Shown here: piece after piece, positions 4,020 to 52,303 of the stretch
How positions within the stretch are numbered: the stretch's first letter is position 1
Layout: each line of letters begins with the position of its first letter
Assembly (NCBI GenBank): GCA_944320995.1
Contig: CALUJQ010000005.1
Span: 1-64,000, forward strand
Direction: 5' to 3'
Source: an uncultured Barnesiella sp.
GTDB taxonomy: Bacteria; Bacteroidota; Bacteroidia; Bacteroidales; Barnesiellaceae
Length of the DNA: 64,000 bases
The notes under the pieces: model-generated
Told to the model about the DNA's origin: nothing
The model's database searches: none
Seen by the model: the letters and a program-made list of their open reading frames with translations, nothing else
Translations under genes and position numbers: made by a program

Positions 4020-5057
4020 ATGAAAAAGAGTTTGTATTTTACCGTTGCCGTTGTGCTATTGTTGAGCGGTTGCCGCTCGGTTTCGATGCTGTCGTTCGAT
4101 GTTTGGCGGCCGGCCAAGATAACTTTCCCGGTCGATATAGAACGAGTGACGGTTGTCAATAATTCGGTCGATCCCGAAGGGCGGGAAGGAAACCGGTATA
4201 AAGATATTTCGGAGAGAGAATATGAGTTGGAGATTTCACACGACAGCACAACGTACCGTTTGGCCGAATATATGGCAGTGGCTCTCTCCGATGCGCATTA
4301 TTTCCCCGAGGTTACGATTTTTTATGACGATTCCATTACGTTGCCCAAAAGCCTTTATCCGTTGTTGAATGAAGGGCAACTATCGGCGATAAGAGAAGAA
4401 ACCGAACACACGGCTGTGGTTACGCTCGATAAGACCGATATGGCTGTGAACATGGAGGATAATGCCCTGATCGGGACGATGGGCGAGACGGTTTATATGA
4501 CCGATCTTTCTGTGGCTACGACCCTGCATTTGCGCGTCTATTGGCCCGATAAGGTCGTGCCTTCTTCCGAGGTGGTCACCGACACGATTTATTGGCAATC
4601 GTTCGGATATACTCCCGACGAAGTACACAGTTCTTTACCTACAACCCCGGAATTTATTCAAGAGGCGATGAAAAATATTTCCACCCGGGTAAGAGACCTT
4701 TTTATCCCCCATGTGGATAATGTCGAGCGTTATATTTATACCTCTTCCAATCCGGCACTGAGCGATGCGTATGATTTCTGGCAACAGCAAAAGTACAAAG
4801 AGGCATCGTATTTGTGGGAGTATGTTTACGAAGAACAGAAAAACAAGACTTCACGGGCAATGGCCGCGGCCAATCTGGCGGTTTATTACGAGTTGTTCGA
4901 CAACTACACCAAGGCTATCGAGTGGGTGGACAAGTCGTTGGCCTTATTCAAAGAGAAATCGGACGGCGAAACTTCCGACATCGTCATGTTGCAGGACTAT
5001 CGGCGGCAATTGCTCGAACGGAAGACCGATAATTCGACCTTGCAGCAGCAGATGTAG
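4020..5057 (+). CDS. Outer-envelope lipoprotein with TPR-like C-terminus (DUF6340-like)
   Basis: 345 residues. The N-terminus is a lipoprotein signal (MKKSLYFTVAVVLLLSGC) with lipobox LSGC and the acylated Cys near residue 18. A mixed alpha/beta middle region is followed, from about residue 240, by helical pairs typical of tetratricopeptide repeats (SYLWEYVYEEQ, AMAAANLAVYYELFDNYTKAIEWVDKSLALF). It resembles Bacteroidales lipoproteins placed in DUF6340; that assignment is from memory and not checked. The role is probably protein-protein interaction at the envelope. The start is fixed by the strong Shine-Dalgarno and the lipobox. A hairpin terminator follows, shared with the convergent gene at 5157. 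Confidence 0.75.
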   Translation: MKKSLYFTVAVVLLLSGCRSVSMLSFDVWRPAKITFPVDIERVTVVNNSVDPEGREGNRYKDISEREYELEISHDSTTYRLAEYMAVALSDAHYFPEVTIFYDDSITLPKSLYPLLNEGQLSAIREETEHTAVVTLDKTDMAVNMEDNALIGTMGETVYMTDLSVATTLHLRVYWPDKVVPSSEVVTDTIYWQSFGYTPDEVHSSLPTTPEFIQEAMKNISTRVRDLFIPHVDNVERYIYTSSNPALSDAYDFWQQQKYKEASYLWEYVYEEQKNKTSRAMAAANLAVYYELFDNYTKAIEWVDKSLALFKEKSDGETSDIVMLQDYRRQLLERKTDNSTLQQQM

Positions 5058-5087
5058 CAGCGGGGGAGTATCTCTGTATGATAAACG

Positions 5088-5141
5088 ATTCGGCGGAAGA
5101 ACTGGTATGGATAGCCAGCCTCCCGCCGAATACGTTTTTTA
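5088..5141 (+). terminator. Terminator between convergent lipoprotein genes
   Basis: ATTCGGCGG (5088-5096) pairs with CCGCCGAAT (5123-5131), with an inner CTGG/CCAG stem, followed by TACGTTTTTTA. The T-tract favours the + strand transcript, but the stem could also serve the minus gene. Confidence 0.6.
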
Positions 5142-5156
5142 TGAAGCGTGTTTTTG

Positions 5157-5702
5157 TCAGCGTTCGAACGATACGGTCACACTGCCCGAGCCTACGGCGG
5201 CAGCCAGCCCCGAAGGGTTGTCTATACGACCTATGCGGGTGTAGCTGTACGAGGTGGAGAACGTCTTGTAGAAGAGTACTACGCACGACGAGCCGTAAAG
5301 CATCAGGTCGCCCGTCTGTATCGTGCCGGGCGATGAGGCTTGGGTAGGCAGGCTTTGGTCGAGGTAGGCATACTTCTCGTTACTGTTCAGTTCGTGCATC
5401 GAGAGGGTGAGCGGCAGCAGGGCGGCAAAAGCATGGGCCGTAGCGTTATCTTCGAGGGTTGCCGTGAAGGTCGAGGTCCCTATCTTCAGCGTCAGGGTCA
5501 TGGCTTGTTCGGGTGTTTCGGTGTTGTTGTCATCATTGTCATCATTATTATCGCCGGGAGTCTCACCCGCATCGTCGCCGGTTCCTCCGGTCAAACTGCC
5601 TCCCGTTGTTGTGGACATGGGGTTGTCGTTGCGGTCGCAGGCCGTGAATGCAAGGCACGACATCGCGGCGAGTAGGGCTATTGTCAGGAACAGAGGTTTC
5701 AT
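5157..5702 (-). CDS. Lipoprotein with cyclophilin-like domain
   Basis: 181 residues. The signal ends in a lipobox (AFTAC, Cys near residue 22). A low-complexity Gly/Asp/Asn/Thr linker of about 40 residues (DDAGETPGDNNDDNDDNN) precedes a domain matching the cyclophilin-like 2 family: TLKIGTSTFTATLEDNATA, FAALLPLTLSMHELN, and the hallmark GDLMLYGSSCVVLFYKTF followed by YTRIGRID. Such domains have a cyclophilin-type barrel but normally lack the proline-isomerase residues; some bind flavin or sugar-like ligands, and no activity is assured here. The Asp-rich linker would hold the domain away from the membrane. It lies 19 bases downstream of the acetyltransferase gene and may be co-transcribed with it. 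Confidence 0.85.
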   Translation of the reverse strand: MKPLFLTIALLAAMSCLAFTACDRNDNPMSTTTGGSLTGGTGDDAGETPGDNNDDNDDNNTETPEQAMTLTLKIGTSTFTATLEDNATAHAFAALLPLTLSMHELNSNEKYAYLDQSLPTQASSPGTIQTGDLMLYGSSCVVLFYKTFSTSYSYTRIGRIDNPSGLAAAVGSGSVTVSFER

Positions 5703-5721
5703 CGCACGGTGTTTTATCGGG

Positions 5722-6294
5722 TTATTCTTGGGTCTCGATAGTCCGTATCACCCGGGCCGGTACACCTCCCACGATAGTGTTGGGAGCAACATCTTTGGTC
5801 ACGACGGCACCGGCAGCTACCACGGCGTTGTCGCCGATAGTAACTCCTTGCAGAATAGTGGCGTTAGCCCCTACCCATACATTCCGCCCCAATACGATAG
5901 GGGCGGGGTAAGTCGTTTTGCGGTCGCTGGGGGCGAGCCCGTGGTTGAGGGTGGCAAACACCACGCCGTGCCCTATTTGGCATCCGTCGCCGAGGGTGAC
6001 TCCGCCGTGGTCTTGAAAGTGACAGCAAGCGTTGATGAATACCTCGTTGCCTATGTGAAGGTTTTTCCCGAAATCGGCATACAACGGAGGGAAAACCCGT
6101 ACCGTATCCGGTATGGGTTTTCCGGTAAGTCGAGCGAGCAGTTCACGTACCTCGTCGGGAGTGTGGTACGAGCCGTTCAGCTGGCAAGTGATCTGTCGGG
6201 CTTCGTTGCTCATTTCGTTCATGAATGCCCCTATCTCAGGGCCGCACAGCGGCTTGCGCTCGGCCGCATGTTGTAGAAATTCGTCGAGAGTCAT
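5722..6294 (-). CDS. Maltose/galactoside O-acetyltransferase-family enzyme (LbetaH)
   Basis: 190 residues, the usual length for the LacA/Maa/NodL family of acetyl-CoA-dependent sugar O-acetyltransferases. It has the N-terminal helical maltose-acetyltransferase-like segment (CGPEIGAFMNEMSNEAR), then left-handed beta-helix hexapeptide repeats (IGNEVFINACCHF, LGDGCQIGHGVVF, LGRNVWVGANATI, IGDNAVVAAGAVV, IVGGVPARVIR). The catalytic histidine is in TLNHGL, and the Asn and His around the active site are kept. It acts in the cytoplasm on an unknown sugar or nodulation-factor-like acceptor. It ends 19 bases before the lipoprotein gene and begins 5 bases after the stop of the hydrolase at 6300, so these three minus genes probably form an operon. 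Confidence 0.9.
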   Translation of the reverse strand: MTLDEFLQHAAERKPLCGPEIGAFMNEMSNEARQITCQLNGSYHTPDEVRELLARLTGKPIPDTVRVFPPLYADFGKNLHIGNEVFINACCHFQDHGGVTLGDGCQIGHGVVFATLNHGLAPSDRKTTYPAPIVLGRNVWVGANATILQGVTIGDNAVVAAGAVVTKDVAPNTIVGGVPARVIRTIETQE

Positions 6295-6299
6295 ACCGG

Positions 6300-7310
6300 T
6301 TATTTTAAATAGAGGCGGAAAAACGATTCGATTTTGTCAAACGGAATTAGGGCACGGTTGTCGTAGAGGTCAACGTGTGAGGCTCCGGGGATAATCATCA
6401 ACTCTTTGTTTTCGCCTTTCAGTTTCTTGAACGCATCTTCACTGAAATAGCGGGAGTGTGCTTTTTCGCCGTGAATCATGAGCACGGCGCTACGAATTTC
6501 GTCGCTGTATGTGAGCAGGGGCGTGTTGATAAACGACAGTGCCGAGGTGATGTTCCAGCCGTTGTTGGAGTTGAGCGAACGTTTGTGGTAGCCGCGCGGA
6601 GTCTTGTAATAGGCATAGTAATCTTTTACGAATTGCGGGGCATCGTCGGGTAGGGGATCTATCACGCCGCCGGCGAGGGCGTATGAGCCATTCTTGGCGT
6701 CGGCCGTGCGTTGTGCATTGAGCTGTTTGCGCAGTTCATAGCGTTGGTCGGCATCCATCGAATCGAAATACCCGTTGGCATTGACACGGCTCATATCATA
6801 CATCGTGACGGTTACGGTTGCCTTAATGCGGGTATCGATAGCTGCGGCATTGAGAGCCATACCGCCCCAGCCGCATATCCCTAAGATACCGATACGACCG
6901 GGATCTACATCGCTTCGTGTAGAAAGGAAATCGACAGCCGCACAGAAATCCTCGGTATTGATGTCGGGAGAGGCCACGTAACGGGGTTCACCTCCGCTCT
7001 CGCCTGTATAGGAGGGGTCGAATGCGATGGTAAGGAATCCACGCTCGGCCAAGGTTTGGGCATAAAGGCCCGAAGCCTGTTCTTTCACGGCACCGAAGGG
7101 GCCCGATACGGCAATCGCGGGCAGTTTCCCTTCGGCATTTTTTGGAAGATACATATCGGCTGCGAGTGTGATTCCGAACCGGTTTTTGAACTGTACACGC
7201 TCGACGGTTACACTTTCGCTCGGTGCGAATGTCTTGTCGTTTTCTTGGGCATAAATCATATTCATTGCTAAACTTAAAAACAGGGTGAAAATAAAAATTC
7301 TTGTATTCAT
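6300..7310 (-). CDS. Secreted alpha/beta hydrolase, YcjY-like
   Basis: 336 residues from the ATG at 7310; an upstream in-frame start at 7340 adds ten residues before an obvious signal peptide (MNTRIFIFTLFLSLAMNMIYAQ) and is less likely. The nucleophile elbow is GICGWGG, with Cys where most alpha/beta hydrolases have Ser, as in dienelactone-hydrolase-like and YcjY proteins. Other marks are DPSYTGESGG, the acid-bearing loop after SAVLMIHGEKAHS, and the late His in GASHVDLYD. The role is probably a periplasmic or surface ester, thioester or peptide hydrolase; the substrate cannot be inferred. A TAACTTTG box lies 28 bases upstream. It is probably the first gene of an operon with the acetyltransferase and the cyclophilin-like lipoprotein. 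Confidence 0.85.
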   Translation of the reverse strand: MNTRIFIFTLFLSLAMNMIYAQENDKTFAPSESVTVERVQFKNRFGITLAADMYLPKNAEGKLPAIAVSGPFGAVKEQASGLYAQTLAERGFLTIAFDPSYTGESGGEPRYVASPDINTEDFCAAVDFLSTRSDVDPGRIGILGICGWGGMALNAAAIDTRIKATVTVTMYDMSRVNANGYFDSMDADQRYELRKQLNAQRTADAKNGSYALAGGVIDPLPDDAPQFVKDYYAYYKTPRGYHKRSLNSNNGWNITSALSFINTPLLTYSDEIRSAVLMIHGEKAHSRYFSEDAFKKLKGENKELMIIPGASHVDLYDNRALIPFDKIESFFRLYLK

Positions 7311-48286: not shown

Positions 48287-49255
48287 ATGAAACAGTTCCT
48301 ATGTATGAGCTTGTTGTTTTTGAGTTTGCTACCGGCGGTGGGGTGGGCGGCAACCGAACAGGCCGTATCGCTGGATACCCCCACAGGTACGATAAACGGG
48401 AAGCTATTGATTCCCGATGCCGAACGCCCTCCGGTAGTTTTGTTGATTGCCGGCTCGGGACCCACCGATATGGACGGGAATACGGTATCGGGGAGTTTGT
48501 CGATAAAGAACAACTCGTTGAAATTGTTGGCCGAGGGGTTAGCCCGGCAAGGCATAGCCACCTTGCGCTACGACAAACGAGGTATCGCTTCGAGTGCGTC
48601 GGCCGGGAAATCCGAGACTACCATGCGTTTTGAAGATTATGTGGACGATGCGGCGGATTGGATTACATGGTTGGGCCGGGAAACCCGTTTTTCCGGCATA
48701 TATGTGCTGGGGCACAGCGAAGGTGCGTTGATAGGCATGTTGGCTTGTTTGAAGAATACGAATACGAATGTGAAAGGATTTATCTCGCTGGCTGGAGCCG
48801 GATATCCGGCTTATGCCCTTATCGAAGAGCAAATGGCCGGGCAGCCGGCCGAGGTGCGGGCGTTGGTAAAATCGATCAACGATTCGTTACAGAAGGGCCA
48901 GTGTGTTTCAAATGTTCCCATGGGCTTGATGGCTTTGTTCCGTCCGTCGGTACAGCCCTATCTTATTTCGTGGTACCGGTACGATCCCGGGTCGGTTATC
49001 TCGAATCTGCGCTTGCCGGTGCTTATCATACAAGGCGACCGTGATATACAGGTCTCGGTGAAAAATGCCGAACGGTTACGGTTGTCGCAACGCCGGGCGC
49101 GCTTGCAGATTATAGAGAATATGAATCATGTGTTGAAGATGTGCGAATCGACCGATGCCGCCGCACAACAGGCTACTTATACCAACCCCGATTTACCCGT
49201 TTCGGAACAATTGATAACGACGATTGAAAAATTTATAAAAAATGACAACCAGTGA
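48287..49255 (+). CDS. Exported alpha/beta hydrolase
   Basis: 322 residues from the ATG at 48287; in-frame TTG codons at 48275 and 48281 are less likely given the promoter at 48230-48261. It has a signal peptide (MKQFLCMSLLFLSLLPAVGWA). The alpha/beta-hydrolase fold is shown by LIAGSGPTDMDGN (oxyanion region), RYDKRGIASS, the nucleophile elbow GHSEGA, the acid region VLIIQGDRDIQVS, and the late His in ENMNHVLK. The substrate is unknown, probably an ester or peptide in the periplasm. Its 3' end overlaps the DUF2089 gene by 14 bases, so translation is coupled. Confidence 0.88.
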   Translation: MKQFLCMSLLFLSLLPAVGWAATEQAVSLDTPTGTINGKLLIPDAERPPVVLLIAGSGPTDMDGNTVSGSLSIKNNSLKLLAEGLARQGIATLRYDKRGIASSASAGKSETTMRFEDYVDDAADWITWLGRETRFSGIYVLGHSEGALIGMLACLKNTNTNVKGFISLAGAGYPAYALIEEQMAGQPAEVRALVKSINDSLQKGQCVSNVPMGLMALFRPSVQPYLISWYRYDPGSVISNLRLPVLIIQGDRDIQVSVKNAERLRLSQRRARLQIIENMNHVLKMCESTDAAAQQATYTNPDLPVSEQLITTIEKFIKNDNQ

Positions 49256-49529
49256 AATGAAGAAAAAATTGCCGTTACGGTGCCCGGCTTGCGATGCTTC
49301 GCTCAAAGTGTCGAAGATGGTATGCAGCCGTTGCGATACCGAGGTCTCTGGAGAATTTGAATTACCTGCCTTGACACATCTTACCGAGGAGGAACAGCGC
49401 TTTATGCTCGAATTTGTCAAGGCGAGCGGCAGCCTTAAAGATATGGCCAAGCAGATGGGGGTGAGCTATCCGACGGTGCGGAATTATTTGGACGACTTGA
49501 TTGACAAATTGAACAATATGGAGGAGTGA
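49242..49529 (+). CDS. DUF2089 zinc-ribbon/HTH protein
   Basis: 95 residues. Two CxxC pairs (CPAC and CSRC) form a zinc ribbon near residues 14-31. They are followed by a helix-turn-helix-like C-terminal part (LTEEEQRFMLEFVKASGSLKDMAKQMGVSYPTVRNYLDDLIDKL). This is the DUF2089 architecture. The HTH suggests DNA binding, so it may regulate its own operon or neighbours. It overlaps the hydrolase by 14 bases and its stop TGA shares a base with the ATG of the next gene. Confidence 0.9.
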   Translation: MTTSEMKKKLPLRCPACDASLKVSKMVCSRCDTEVSGEFELPALTHLTEEEQRFMLEFVKASGSLKDMAKQMGVSYPTVRNYLDDLIDKLNNMEE

Positions 49530-50119
49530 TGGAGAAGATATTGAAATTCGTGAAAAATCCCTTTTATCGGGTAGCGGGGTACGCTGCGCTTGTGTGGGGA
49601 GTAGCCGGGATCGTTGTTTCGACGGCAATAGCCTATTGTGGGGGAGTCCATTTCCACGGATTGCTGCATTATGGTGGTGCGCCCAACGGGTCATGGTGGT
49701 GTTTTGTCGTGGAGCATTTGGCGGTTTGGTTGGTTCCTGCGGTATTGATTTACCTTGCGAGCCTTTTTGCCAGCCGTTCACACGTGAGGCCGGTCGATGT
49801 GTTGGGAACGGTTGCTTTTGCCCAGTTGCCGTTTGTGTTGCTCTCGCTGTTTATGGCTTTACCTCCGATGAGCGGGATTATGTCGATACAATCGTTGCAG
49901 GACGTCGAGCAACTCCTTTCCGATACAAGTTGGATTCTTACGGTCGTGTGGATAGGCGCGGTAGGACTGCTTATGGCCATTTGGGTGCTGTATTGGATTT
50001 TTCGAGCCATATCGGTCGCCTGTAATTTGAAAGGTCGCAACCTGTGGATAGTTTTTATCATCGGTGTTTTTGGCGGCGATTTGCTTTGCCGTTATCTGAT
50101 AGGGTTGTGTTATTATTGA
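49529..50119 (+). CDS. YIP1-family integral membrane protein
   Basis: 196 residues from the ATG at 49529, which overlaps the preceding TGA (TGATG); GAGGAG lies just upstream. It starts with the family opening FVKNPFYRVAG and has about five membrane segments (YAALVWGVAGIVVSTAIAYCGG; LAVWLVPAVLIYLASLFAS; LGTVAFAQLPFVLLSLFMALP; LTVVWIGAVGLLMAIWVLYWIF; IVFIIGVFGGDLLCRYLIGL). YIP1-domain proteins of bacteria have no settled function. Coupled expression with DUF2089 suggests a regulator-membrane protein pair. Confidence 0.82.
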   Translation: MEKILKFVKNPFYRVAGYAALVWGVAGIVVSTAIAYCGGVHFHGLLHYGGAPNGSWWCFVVEHLAVWLVPAVLIYLASLFASRSHVRPVDVLGTVAFAQLPFVLLSLFMALPPMSGIMSIQSLQDVEQLLSDTSWILTVVWIGAVGLLMAIWVLYWIFRAISVACNLKGRNLWIVFIIGVFGGDLLCRYLIGLCYY

Positions 50120-50213: not shown

Positions 50214-50684
50214 CTATAAGTTTTGGGTCAGGCTCTGCAATTTATTGATTGAGATGTTTCCCGATAATTGTATGAGGACCAGTTCTTCGCCGTTTTCGTC
50301 GATTACCATAATCAGTTCCTTGACCTTTTTATCGGTTTGGGGAAGTATGTAGAAACTTACAGTCTCGTCGTCATCTTTGACTTTCATCAATTCTTCGTAG
50401 GGGGCTTTTCGGAATACGGCACACTCTTTTCGTATTTGGGCAATCATGTTGGCATTGTCCTCACATGTGAGAATCTGAATGCGGTCGAGTTCGTTGATGA
50501 CGCTTTTCAAATCCAATGCCTCCAATTCCAGTTGTCCTTCGGGCATCATGTTCAACAAGGTTTTAGAGATATTGACATAGGTGATACCCTTTTGGTCGGC
50601 AAATTTCTCAAAGACGTTGTCCCCGGCATTTGCCGAAAGCAGGCCGATTGCGGTCAGTAGGAAAATATGAACGATACGTTTCAT
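50214..50684 (-). CDS. DUF4252 exported protein (second copy)
   Basis: 156 residues with a signal peptide (MKRIVHIFLLTAIGLLSANA). The mature part matches DUF4252: FEKFADQKGITYVNISKTLLNMMP, the central Leu/Asp-rich helix, and the late strand pattern KELIMVIDENGEELVLIQLSGNISINKLQSL. DUF4252 proteins of Bacteroidota are small periplasmic or lipoprotein partners encoded beside ECF sigma factors; function unknown. It begins 2 bases after the anti-sigma stop. A paralogue lies at the head of the same operon, but the two share only the family pattern. Confidence 0.88.
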   Translation of the reverse strand: MKRIVHIFLLTAIGLLSANAGDNVFEKFADQKGITYVNISKTLLNMMPEGQLELEALDLKSVINELDRIQILTCEDNANMIAQIRKECAVFRKAPYEELMKVKDDDETVSFYILPQTDKKVKELIMVIDENGEELVLIQLSGNISINKLQSLTQNL

Positions 50685-50686
50685 GG

Positions 50687-51187
50687 TTATTCGTATTTGA
50701 AATGTTTATTGATGATTTTATTTGTTTTTGAAAATCCTTGTTGGGCTTGTTGCCACTGTTCGGTTCCTTTGTTCAGTTTTTGTGAGACGAGCAACAAAGC
50801 CCGTTGAGCCTCGGCGCAAGCGTATAATTCCTGTTCACTGAGTGTGGGCGTGGCGGGCTGGCGGGTAAAGTAGAGCCCGGCAGCCGAGGCTAATATCAAC
50901 GCTGCTGCAACCCCGCTTATCCATCGCCATACAGGAGCGAAAACCCGTCGATTCTTCTGTCCCTGTTCGGGGAGTCGGTCTATGAACGACGACATTCGGG
51001 TTTCCAACCCTTCGGGAATTCGATTGGCGTGGTCGGGCAGAAGCGCAAGGATTATACGTTTTTCATCGTGAAACTCTTGCGGAACCTCATGGGTAGCCAG
51101 ATAGTCTCTCAATACTTGCTCTTCACCGTCGGATAAGTATCCTTCAAAGAAGGCATCTATTTGTTTGCGTAACTCCTGAACTGTCAT
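50687..51187 (-). CDS. Anti-sigma factor-like single-pass membrane protein
   Basis: 166 residues. An N-terminal cytoplasmic domain (to about residue 88) is followed by one membrane helix (WISGVAAALILASAAGLYF) and a short periplasmic tail (YACAEAQRALLLVSQKLNKGTEQWQQAQQGF). This layout and the 4-base overlap with the ECF sigma gene identify it as the cognate anti-sigma factor by context; no zinc-binding ZAS motif is visible. It would hold the sigma factor at the inner membrane until a periplasmic signal arrives, possibly through the DUF4252 proteins. Confidence 0.75.
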   Translation of the reverse strand: MTVQELRKQIDAFFEGYLSDGEEQVLRDYLATHEVPQEFHDEKRIILALLPDHANRIPEGLETRMSSFIDRLPEQGQKNRRVFAPVWRWISGVAAALILASAAGLYFTRQPATPTLSEQELYACAEAQRALLLVSQKLNKGTEQWQQAQQGFSKTNKIINKHFKYE

Positions 51188-51681
51188 ATCTTTTGAATAA
51201 AGAGTTCTCTAATTGTTTTTCTTGCCCGGGAAAGGAGTACCCTGATGTGGACGCTGCTCAATCCCGTTTCGCTTTCGATTTCTTCGGCGCTGCGTTCCTC
51301 AAAATGTTTCAGCATCAATACCCGGCGTTGCTGTTCGGGAAGTTGCTCGATGAGGTGCAGCAGAATACCCATATCTTCTTTGAGTTCCAGAGCCTCGTCG
51401 GGTTGTGGTGCCGTTTCGGTTTTTTGCATCAATTCCTGTTCGTTGTCGAAGCCAATAGCAGGCTGCTTTAACCGGTCGAGGCACAAATGCTTTACGATGG
51501 TGAGCGCATAGGCTTCGTCGTTCTCTATGGAGTCGAGTATATCCCGTTTTTCCCACAATTTCAAGTAGGCGTTTTGTACCATATCTTCGGCGTCATATTC
51601 ATTGCCCAGATACCGGAAGGCGATGCGATACATTCTCTTATGAGATGGCAAGAATCGTATTTTGAATTCTTGGTGAGTCAT
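51184..51681 (-). CDS. ECF-type RNA polymerase sigma factor
   Basis: 165 residues, normal for ECF sigma factors. Region 2 is seen in RIAFRYLGNEYDAEDMVQNAYLKLWEKRD, which binds the -10 element. Region 4 has the helix-turn-helix PEQQRRVLMLKHFEERSAEEIESETGLSSVHIRVLLSRARKTI, which binds the -35 element. The linker between them is short. The gene starts 7 bases after the upstream DUF4252 stop and overlaps the anti-sigma gene by 4 bases. An ECF-type promoter before the operon suggests autoregulation. Confidence 0.95.
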   Translation of the reverse strand: MTHQEFKIRFLPSHKRMYRIAFRYLGNEYDAEDMVQNAYLKLWEKRDILDSIENDEAYALTIVKHLCLDRLKQPAIGFDNEQELMQKTETAPQPDEALELKEDMGILLHLIEQLPEQQRRVLMLKHFEERSAEEIESETGLSSVHIRVLLSRARKTIRELFIQKI

Positions 51682-51688
51682 CTCTGGA

Positions 51689-52144
51689 CTATTTTTTGTC
51701 GTTAACCAACTCTTCCATTTGTTTGGGGTCTATATTGCCTTTGATTCGGATCAGGCTTATTTCAGACGGTTCGAGTGAGATGATGACCATCTCTCTGATT
51801 CTGTCTTTCTTGGTTTTCAGAAGGATTCGAGCCATCTCGTCATCTTCGTTGGTAGATACCATAGTTTCATATTCTCCGCTATTGCATCGGGTAATCAGGT
51901 TTTTGAATTTCTTATAGTCTTGTTCCGATAGTTGGTCGGCATTCAGAATCTCCATGGCCTTCACTCCTTTTAATTCGGGAGAGAAAGGTTTGAGCAGGTT
52001 CAAGGCAAATGAGTTGATGTTTATATTTTGTGCTTCGGGTATCCGGGCGATCGATTTCGATAGATTGTCGATGCAGTTGTCGGCAAAAAGGACCGATGAA
52101 TACCCCAACAGGGTAATGGCGATAAGTAGGCTTTTTGTTTTCAT
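51689..52144 (-). CDS. DUF4252 exported protein (first gene of the sigma operon)
   Basis: 151 residues from the ATG at 52144 (MKTKSLLIAITLLGYSSVLFA, a signal peptide). An earlier ATG at 52219 would place a basic 25-residue stretch in front and would fall at the predicted transcription start, so it is rejected. The mature domain resembles DUF4252 (SFALNLLKPFSPELKGVKAMEIL and REMVIISLEPSEISLIRIKGNIDPKQMEEL). It lies 7 bases before the sigma gene. Its paralogue is the last gene of the operon. A role in sensing or buffering the envelope signal for the sigma factor is inferred from the arrangement. Confidence 0.83.
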   Translation of the reverse strand: MKTKSLLIAITLLGYSSVLFADNCIDNLSKSIARIPEAQNININSFALNLLKPFSPELKGVKAMEILNADQLSEQDYKKFKNLITRCNSGEYETMVSTNEDDEMARILLKTKKDRIREMVIISLEPSEISLIRIKGNIDPKQMEELVNDKK

Positions 52145-52224
52145 GTGTTGGATTTTTTCAAGTAATTTTTTCTGTTTGTTGTTTTTTCCGTAAGCTACGC
52201 GTTTTCTTTCGGCTTTCATAAGGG

Positions 52225-52250
52225 AGACGAGTAACAGGTAAATATGTTAC
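52225..52250 (-). promoter_or_regulatory. Candidate ECF-dependent promoter with inverted repeat
   Basis: On the minus strand GTAAC (52250 to 52246) is separated by 16 bases from CGTCT (52229 to 52225), the spacing and core bases typical of ECF sigma promoters (AAC at -35, CGTC at -10). The 52231-52250 segment is also an inverted repeat (GTAACA with TGTTAC). It differs from the housekeeping TAnnTTTG pattern seen elsewhere and lies just before the sigma operon, with expected transcription start near 52218. Confidence 0.6.
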
Positions 52251-52261
52251 AGAAAAAATTG

Positions 52262-52303
52262 AAATCGGGCGAGAAAAATAGATACTATCCTCTCGCCCGA
52301 TTT
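52262..52303 (-). terminator. Terminator of the korDABC operon
   Basis: A 13-bp stem (52262-52274 with 52291-52303) lies 24 bases after the korC stop. On the minus strand it is followed by TTTCAATTTTTT. Confidence 0.8.

Follow-up and report, generated by a model that had tools for sequence, protein, structure and literature searches.

The operon and its genes

Four tightly packed genes on the minus strand of the window (the whole 64-kb stretch of DNA that was analysed, from an uncultured Barnesiella species) encode an exported DUF4252 protein (D1), a σ factor of the extracytoplasmic function (ECF) type, an anti-σ factor and a second exported DUF4252 protein (D2). A sequence-only reading had proposed this arrangement, and the ORF list of the window and the Pfam matches bear it out. 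The genes and the signals that precede them are as follows:

52262..52303, minus strand: intrinsic terminator-like hairpin of the upstream 2-oxoacid oxidoreductase genes (-24.7 kcal/mol, z -6.1)
52246..52250, minus strand: -35-type box GTAAC (TGTAACA in context), conserved in Barnesiella; GTnAY in 76/86 family loci
52225..52229, minus strand: -10-type box CGTCT, exactly 16 nt after GTAAC; only a spacer of 16 is enriched
51689..52144, minus strand: D1, exported DUF4252 protein, first gene of the operon (151 aa; signal peptide ~1-21; Pfam 68.4 bits)
51184..51681, minus strand: ECF σ factor of the PG0214/GFO_1088 family, NF058625 (165 aa; 172.5 bits)
50687..51187, minus strand: single-pass anti-σ factor (166 aa, N-in; ~58-residue periplasmic tail)
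50214..50684, minus strand: D2, exported DUF4252 protein, last gene of the operon (156 aa; Pfam 97.9 bits)

The σ gene overlaps the start of the anti-σ gene by 4 nt. Where does the first gene begin? The D1 ORF as listed spans 51689-52219, but its homologues in other Barnesiella species, mostly 151 aa long, begin at the ATG equivalent to 52144, behind a 5' leader of ~75 nt; by chance the frame stays open for a further 25 codons, to 52219, but these are not conserved in relatives, and D1 is therefore taken to start at 52144. A leader peptide initiated from the ATG at 52219 was considered and rejected: the corresponding ORFs of relatives differ in both length and sequence. On the upstream side, the hairpin is predicted to insulate the operon from the preceding oxidoreductase genes; it ends just upstream of the promoter, and D1 should therefore head the transcript. 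Close relatives carry a similar CG-rich/T-rich text ahead of the GTAAC box. Convergent with the operon, on the plus strand at 49242-50119, the gene for a DUF2089 zinc-ribbon/HTH regulator overlaps that for a Yip1-domain membrane protein.

The σ/anti-σ pair and the DUF4252 proteins

The σ protein has the Sigma70 r2 and r4 matches (Pfam) of an ECF factor. It matches NF058625 over residues 1-164, well above the curated cut-off of 130 bits, and scores 104.9 bits against the TIGR02985 Bacteroidetes sigma-70 subfamily, below the curated cut-off of 126.4. The layout of the NF058625 family, in which an anti-σ gene lies directly downstream of the σ gene and is followed by DUF4252, is found at the window operon. 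The anti-σ protein contains one hydrophobic segment (~89-107), in keeping with the single-pass topology first suggested for it, and is oriented N-in because four positive charges lie on the N side of this segment vs one on the C side. It weakly matches the NF052375 anti-σ model, and its tail carries an AxAExQxALxLVSxxLNxG-like motif that is recognisable across the phylum. The AlphaFold2 model of the anti-σ was poor (pLDDT 50) and was not used.

Both D1 and D2 exceed the gathering cut-off of Pfam DUF4252 (PF14060; 23.9 bits), share ~21% identity and begin with signal-peptide-like N termini that lack a lipobox; the description of two divergent exported DUF4252 proteins thus stands. A lipobox-like motif is present in nine Flavobacteriaceae-type second DUF4252 copies and in two DUF6108 proteins (see below). 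D2 scores 93.6 bits against the GFO_1090 equivalog model (NF058626), short of the curated cut-off of 150, and is thus related to, but not filed as, a GFO_1090 equivalog.

Sequence searches with D1 or D2 found no solved DUF4252 structure; a match of D1 to PCNA (3k4x; E 6e-4), in which no stretch passes alone, was taken as chance. The AlphaFold2 model of D2 (pLDDT 80, pTM 0.74) is adequate for a structure search, and its best structural matches are DcrB, the Eag chaperones EagT6 and SciW, PsbP and Mog1, a fold group that supplies many of the top Z-scored rows. The scores (best Foldseek E 6.7e-4, TM ~0.33; best Z 6.4) lie in a range compatible with a common arrangement, and the resemblance of the model can serve as a pointer to an envelope or chaperone role but not as evidence for it.

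A promoter that stays with the operon

The sequence-only reading had placed an ECF-type promoter, GTAAC-N16-CGTCT, at 52250-52225, and this is the sole occurrence of GTAAC-N16-CGTC on either strand of the 64 kb. Transcription would be expected to start near 52219-52216. The promoter is the best-supported feature of the operon. All Barnesiella genomes searched have DUF4252 upstream of σ and the anti-σ gene downstream, with D2 next where the contig reaches (the stretch fetched for G008 stops short of D2), and six of the nine have a third DUF4252 gene between D1 and σ. GTAAC-N16-CGTC precedes the first DUF4252 gene in 9/9 Barnesiella genomes and is found in more distant loci too; when a DUF4252 gene is added, the position of the promoter relative to σ moves from ~-560 to ~-1000. 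Both the gene order and the upstream motif, the two features that had been singled out for a check on relatives, are thus conserved in the Barnesiella genomes examined.

Across Bacteroidota, GTnAY-N16-CGTY lies before the first gene of the operon in 76 of 86 σ-family loci, the window operon included; when spacers of 8-25 were scanned over the same loci, other lengths gave 0-7 matches, and the shuffled mean was 0.7. The ten exceptions are mostly near matches by inspection, with one changed base or a spacer of 17. In all 17 loci with an upstream DUF4252 gene, the motif precedes the first DUF4252 gene, and in 0/17 is it found between DUF4252 and σ. Autoregulation from an ECF-type promoter, as originally proposed, is strongly supported by this pattern: both boxes and their spacing are conserved phylum-wide, and the promoter stays before the first gene despite the inserted DUF4252.

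The layout common in other families is σ, anti-σ, DUF4252; where there is a second DUF4252 gene, it comes last in Flavobacteriaceae-like genomes and precedes σ in several Bacteroidales. A quick tree with long branches tentatively suggests that the upstream copy had at least two origins. At several loci in which σ is the first gene (L097, L099, L100, L103 and others), its ATG lies only ~11 nt past CGTC, and the transcript may therefore be nearly leaderless.

An apparently narrow regulon, with DUF4252 in cis and in trans

How many genes does this σ factor control? The strict form of the motif, TGTAACA-N15-CGTCY, occurs at the window-type operon in 9/9 Barnesiella genomes. One further strict site, before a transglutaminase-like gene, is found in each of G002 and G003 only; it was rejected as a σ target, probably not being one, because it overlaps a housekeeping-type TATATTTG box, which leaves no other detectable strict target in the genus. 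Sites with one mismatch show no excess over a reversed-pattern control in four Barnesiella genomes, and a wider Barnesiella regulon built on such sites was rejected. The regulon thus appears narrow in Barnesiella, as judged by motif searches that need near-consensus sites; a wider regulon of weak sites is possible. In other genomes, family-type promoter sites lie before an ABC-transporter ATPase gene (L216 1500 minus), a small membrane protein gene (L215 1500 plus) and another σ gene (L201 1500 minus), all possible extra targets.

DUF4252 genes are recurrent predicted targets outside the operon as well. Among 17 orphan DUF4252 loci in other Bacteroidales genomes, six are preceded by the motif, at 49-73 nt from the start: 6/10 in σ-bearing genomes vs 0/7 in genomes without the σ factor (one-sided hypergeometric 210/12376 = 0.017). 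This split is made by σ over the curated cut-off and replaces one made at a stricter σ threshold (6/8 vs 0/9).

DUF4252 as a probable partner of the σ/anti-σ pair

In 198 genomes of the order, 118 of 140 DUF4252 genes lie within 5 kb of a gene for a PG0214/GFO_1088-family σ factor. The two occur together in 73 genomes and are both absent from 113, leaving 12 discordant cases (3 with σ only, 9 with DUF4252 only); the p value of 7e-40 overstates independence because the genomes are related by descent. Seen from the σ side, a Pfam DUF4252 lies within 5 kb at 76 of 92 order-wide loci. The σ/anti-σ core can do without DUF4252, since the remaining 16/92 loci are without a nearby Pfam DUF4252 and some anti-σ factors have HEAT repeats instead. 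The latter are anti-σ factors of the same σ family in other families of bacteria, whose long C-terminal tail is made of HEAT repeats according to Pfam (L141 666-1505, L143 2003-2767); the long tail of a further one (L150 2006-2782) is similar by eye, and none of the three fetched stretches contains DUF4252.

In a single genome, G152, one ORF (L107 630-1535, minus strand) joins the anti-σ to a DUF4252-like domain at its periplasmic end. There is no signal peptide between the two parts, as expected if the domain reaches the periplasm via the membrane segment of the anti-σ. A clean profile gives the domain moderate support (E 1.3e-5) and is used in place of an earlier value of 2e-17, which was obtained with a profile into which the fusion sequence itself had been drawn. 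Because Pfam makes no DUF4252 call on this domain, the ORF is probably, not certainly, a natural anti-σ-DUF4252 fusion. Co-localisation, co-occurrence, trans genes with the same promoter and this one probable fusion together support a functional tie between DUF4252 and the σ/anti-σ pair.

A probable envelope-response module with feedback

What would such an operon do? The reading that we consider fairly probable is an autoregulated envelope-response module with DUF4252 as its main output, probably feeding back on the anti-σ. In the resting state, the single-pass anti-σ would keep σ at the inner membrane; a putative envelope signal would free σ to bring RNA polymerase to GTAAC-N16-CGTCT before D1, and D1, σ, anti-σ and D2 would be made as one transcript. 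More σ would give positive feedback and more anti-σ negative feedback. The main product of the switch would be exported DUF4252, a protein that would be active in the periplasm or envelope and would most likely also reset or tune the anti-σ by way of its periplasmic tail; DUF4252 might sense or buffer the signal, as the sequence-only reading had supposed. There are precedents for such a part: in RseA/RseB with RpoE and in CpxA/CpxP, a periplasmic protein encoded with the switch tunes a membrane-bound regulator. The likeness of DUF4252 to RseB or CpxP is a functional analogy, with no sequence relation claimed, and the hint that DUF4252 may act on the anti-σ is the G152 fusion.

DUF4252 may instead be a pure effector, envelope-protecting or chaperone-like, that makes no direct contact with the anti-σ; homeostasis would then be indirect, repair removing the signal. 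This is distinctly less probable, if still quite credible. DUF4252 genes outside the operon also carry the promoter, and within the Barnesiella operon DUF4252 copies multiply up to three, as they would for an output; the folds that the D2 model weakly resembles include several envelope or chaperone proteins, and the lipobox-like motifs noted above would also suit an effector. However, DUF4252 is found mostly beside this σ/anti-σ pair and is probably fused to the anti-σ in one genome, which exceeds what a mere effector would need. A feedback role remains the most likely addition to its role as output.

Two further alternatives concern the control of the operon, and both are very unlikely. Most Bacteroides genes use housekeeping promoters (PMC7366714), and a TAnnTTTG promoter could be the main driver here, with the GTAAC/CGTCT pair incidental; however, a scan of 52450-52144 found no exact TAnnTTTG, in agreement with the original claim that the promoter is of another type, and GTAAC-N16-CGTC is kept at a fixed spacing in all Barnesiella relatives. 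Slimmer still is the chance that a repressor or activator controls the operon from the GTAACA/TGTTAC inverted repeat reported to overlap the promoter: the palindrome is indeed present at 52250-52231 in the source species, but its right arm, TGTTAC, is missing in 9/9 relatives (eight other Barnesiella species and L052), and the repeat, probably a product of chance, was therefore dropped as an operator.

Relation to known systems

The locus is a further member of a known, uncharacterised σ family: its closest known counterparts are the PG0214/GFO_1088 σ factors with their GFO_1090/GFO_1091 DUF4252 neighbours (NF058625, NF058626, NF058619; Porphyromonas gingivalis PG_0214-0218 and PG_0985-0987). 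With these it shares a σ factor over the curated cut-off, the order σ, anti-σ, DUF4252, and a D2 that matches GFO_1090 below the cut-off. The Barnesiella locus differs in that an extra DUF4252 gene (two in 6/9 species) precedes σ, with the promoter before it, whereas in Flavobacteriaceae-type genomes the extra copy comes last.

Two published expression data sets are consistent with an operon, although the mechanism lies outside the subject of both papers. In Prevotella bivia, the genes PREBIDRAFT_RS05890-RS05910, annotated in locus-tag order as DUF4252, hypothetical, σ, DUF4252 and DUF4252, are arranged like the Barnesiella operons that contain three DUF4252 genes, and each of them is decreased by 3.0 to 4.0 (in the units of the table) in a triple-species biofilm; the locus appears there as rows of an expression table, its promoter and mechanism not being analysed (PMC11410844). 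In a PG_0686 mutant of P. gingivalis, expression of PG_0214-0218 and PG_0985-0987 goes up together, and further with H2O2 (PMC10101095).

Another Bacteroidales ECF σ/anti-σ pair, EcfO-Reo of Bacteroides and Phocaeicola, is described as responding to envelope stress and as inducing NigD proteins, which are exported or located at the surface (PMC13114119). By that description the Barnesiella pair is set apart from it: Reo spans both membranes and its targets are NigD genes, whereas the Barnesiella anti-σ, of 166 aa, has a single membrane segment and DUF4252 genes are the predicted targets.

What is added here is the promoter and regulon evidence; an earlier published prediction of the promoter is possible. 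This gives DUF4252 a precise handle: one ECF σ family with a defined promoter repeatedly targets it, both in cis and in trans, and the former orphan domain can now be tested as a component of an envelope-response circuit widespread in Bacteroidota. The GTAAC/CGTC promoter offers a ready reporter for finding the signal.

A second switch in the same cells

Most Barnesiella genomes contain a second operon of the same σ family in which the third gene encodes DUF6108, not DUF4252. At the locus L039 (G000:C39:14000-26180) it consists of:

5919-6422, minus strand: σ factor
5462-5926, minus strand: anti-σ factor
5001-5462, minus strand: DUF6108 protein

Its promoter, GTTAC-N16-CGTTA, is conserved, and TGTTACAAA-N13-CGTTA occurs exactly once in 7/9 Barnesiella genomes. 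There thus appear to be two switches with separate single-copy promoters, and we infer that each of the two σ factors reads only its own. Homology of DUF6108 to DUF4252 was considered and rejected: it emerged from an iterated profile only, and neither a clean profile nor a profile-profile comparison (probability 1.8%) supported it.

A broader reading, which we offer tentatively and hold to be less likely than not, would make DUF4252 both the dedicated output and the feedback partner, in the periplasm, of a phylum-wide family of nearly closed-loop σ switches, in which each σ factor has essentially one genomic promoter, its own; paralogous switches in one cell (GTAAC/CGTC vs GTTAC/CGTTA of the DUF6108 operon) would then be insulated by matched changes in both boxes. 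The two Barnesiella switches, with their distinct single-copy promoters, would be a natural example of insulated σ circuits.

Adjoining the second operon (L039 7843-8397, minus strand; also L043 and L044) are another ECF σ gene and a gene for an anti-σ-like protein of 424-445 aa, a length that recalls the double-membrane-spanning type.
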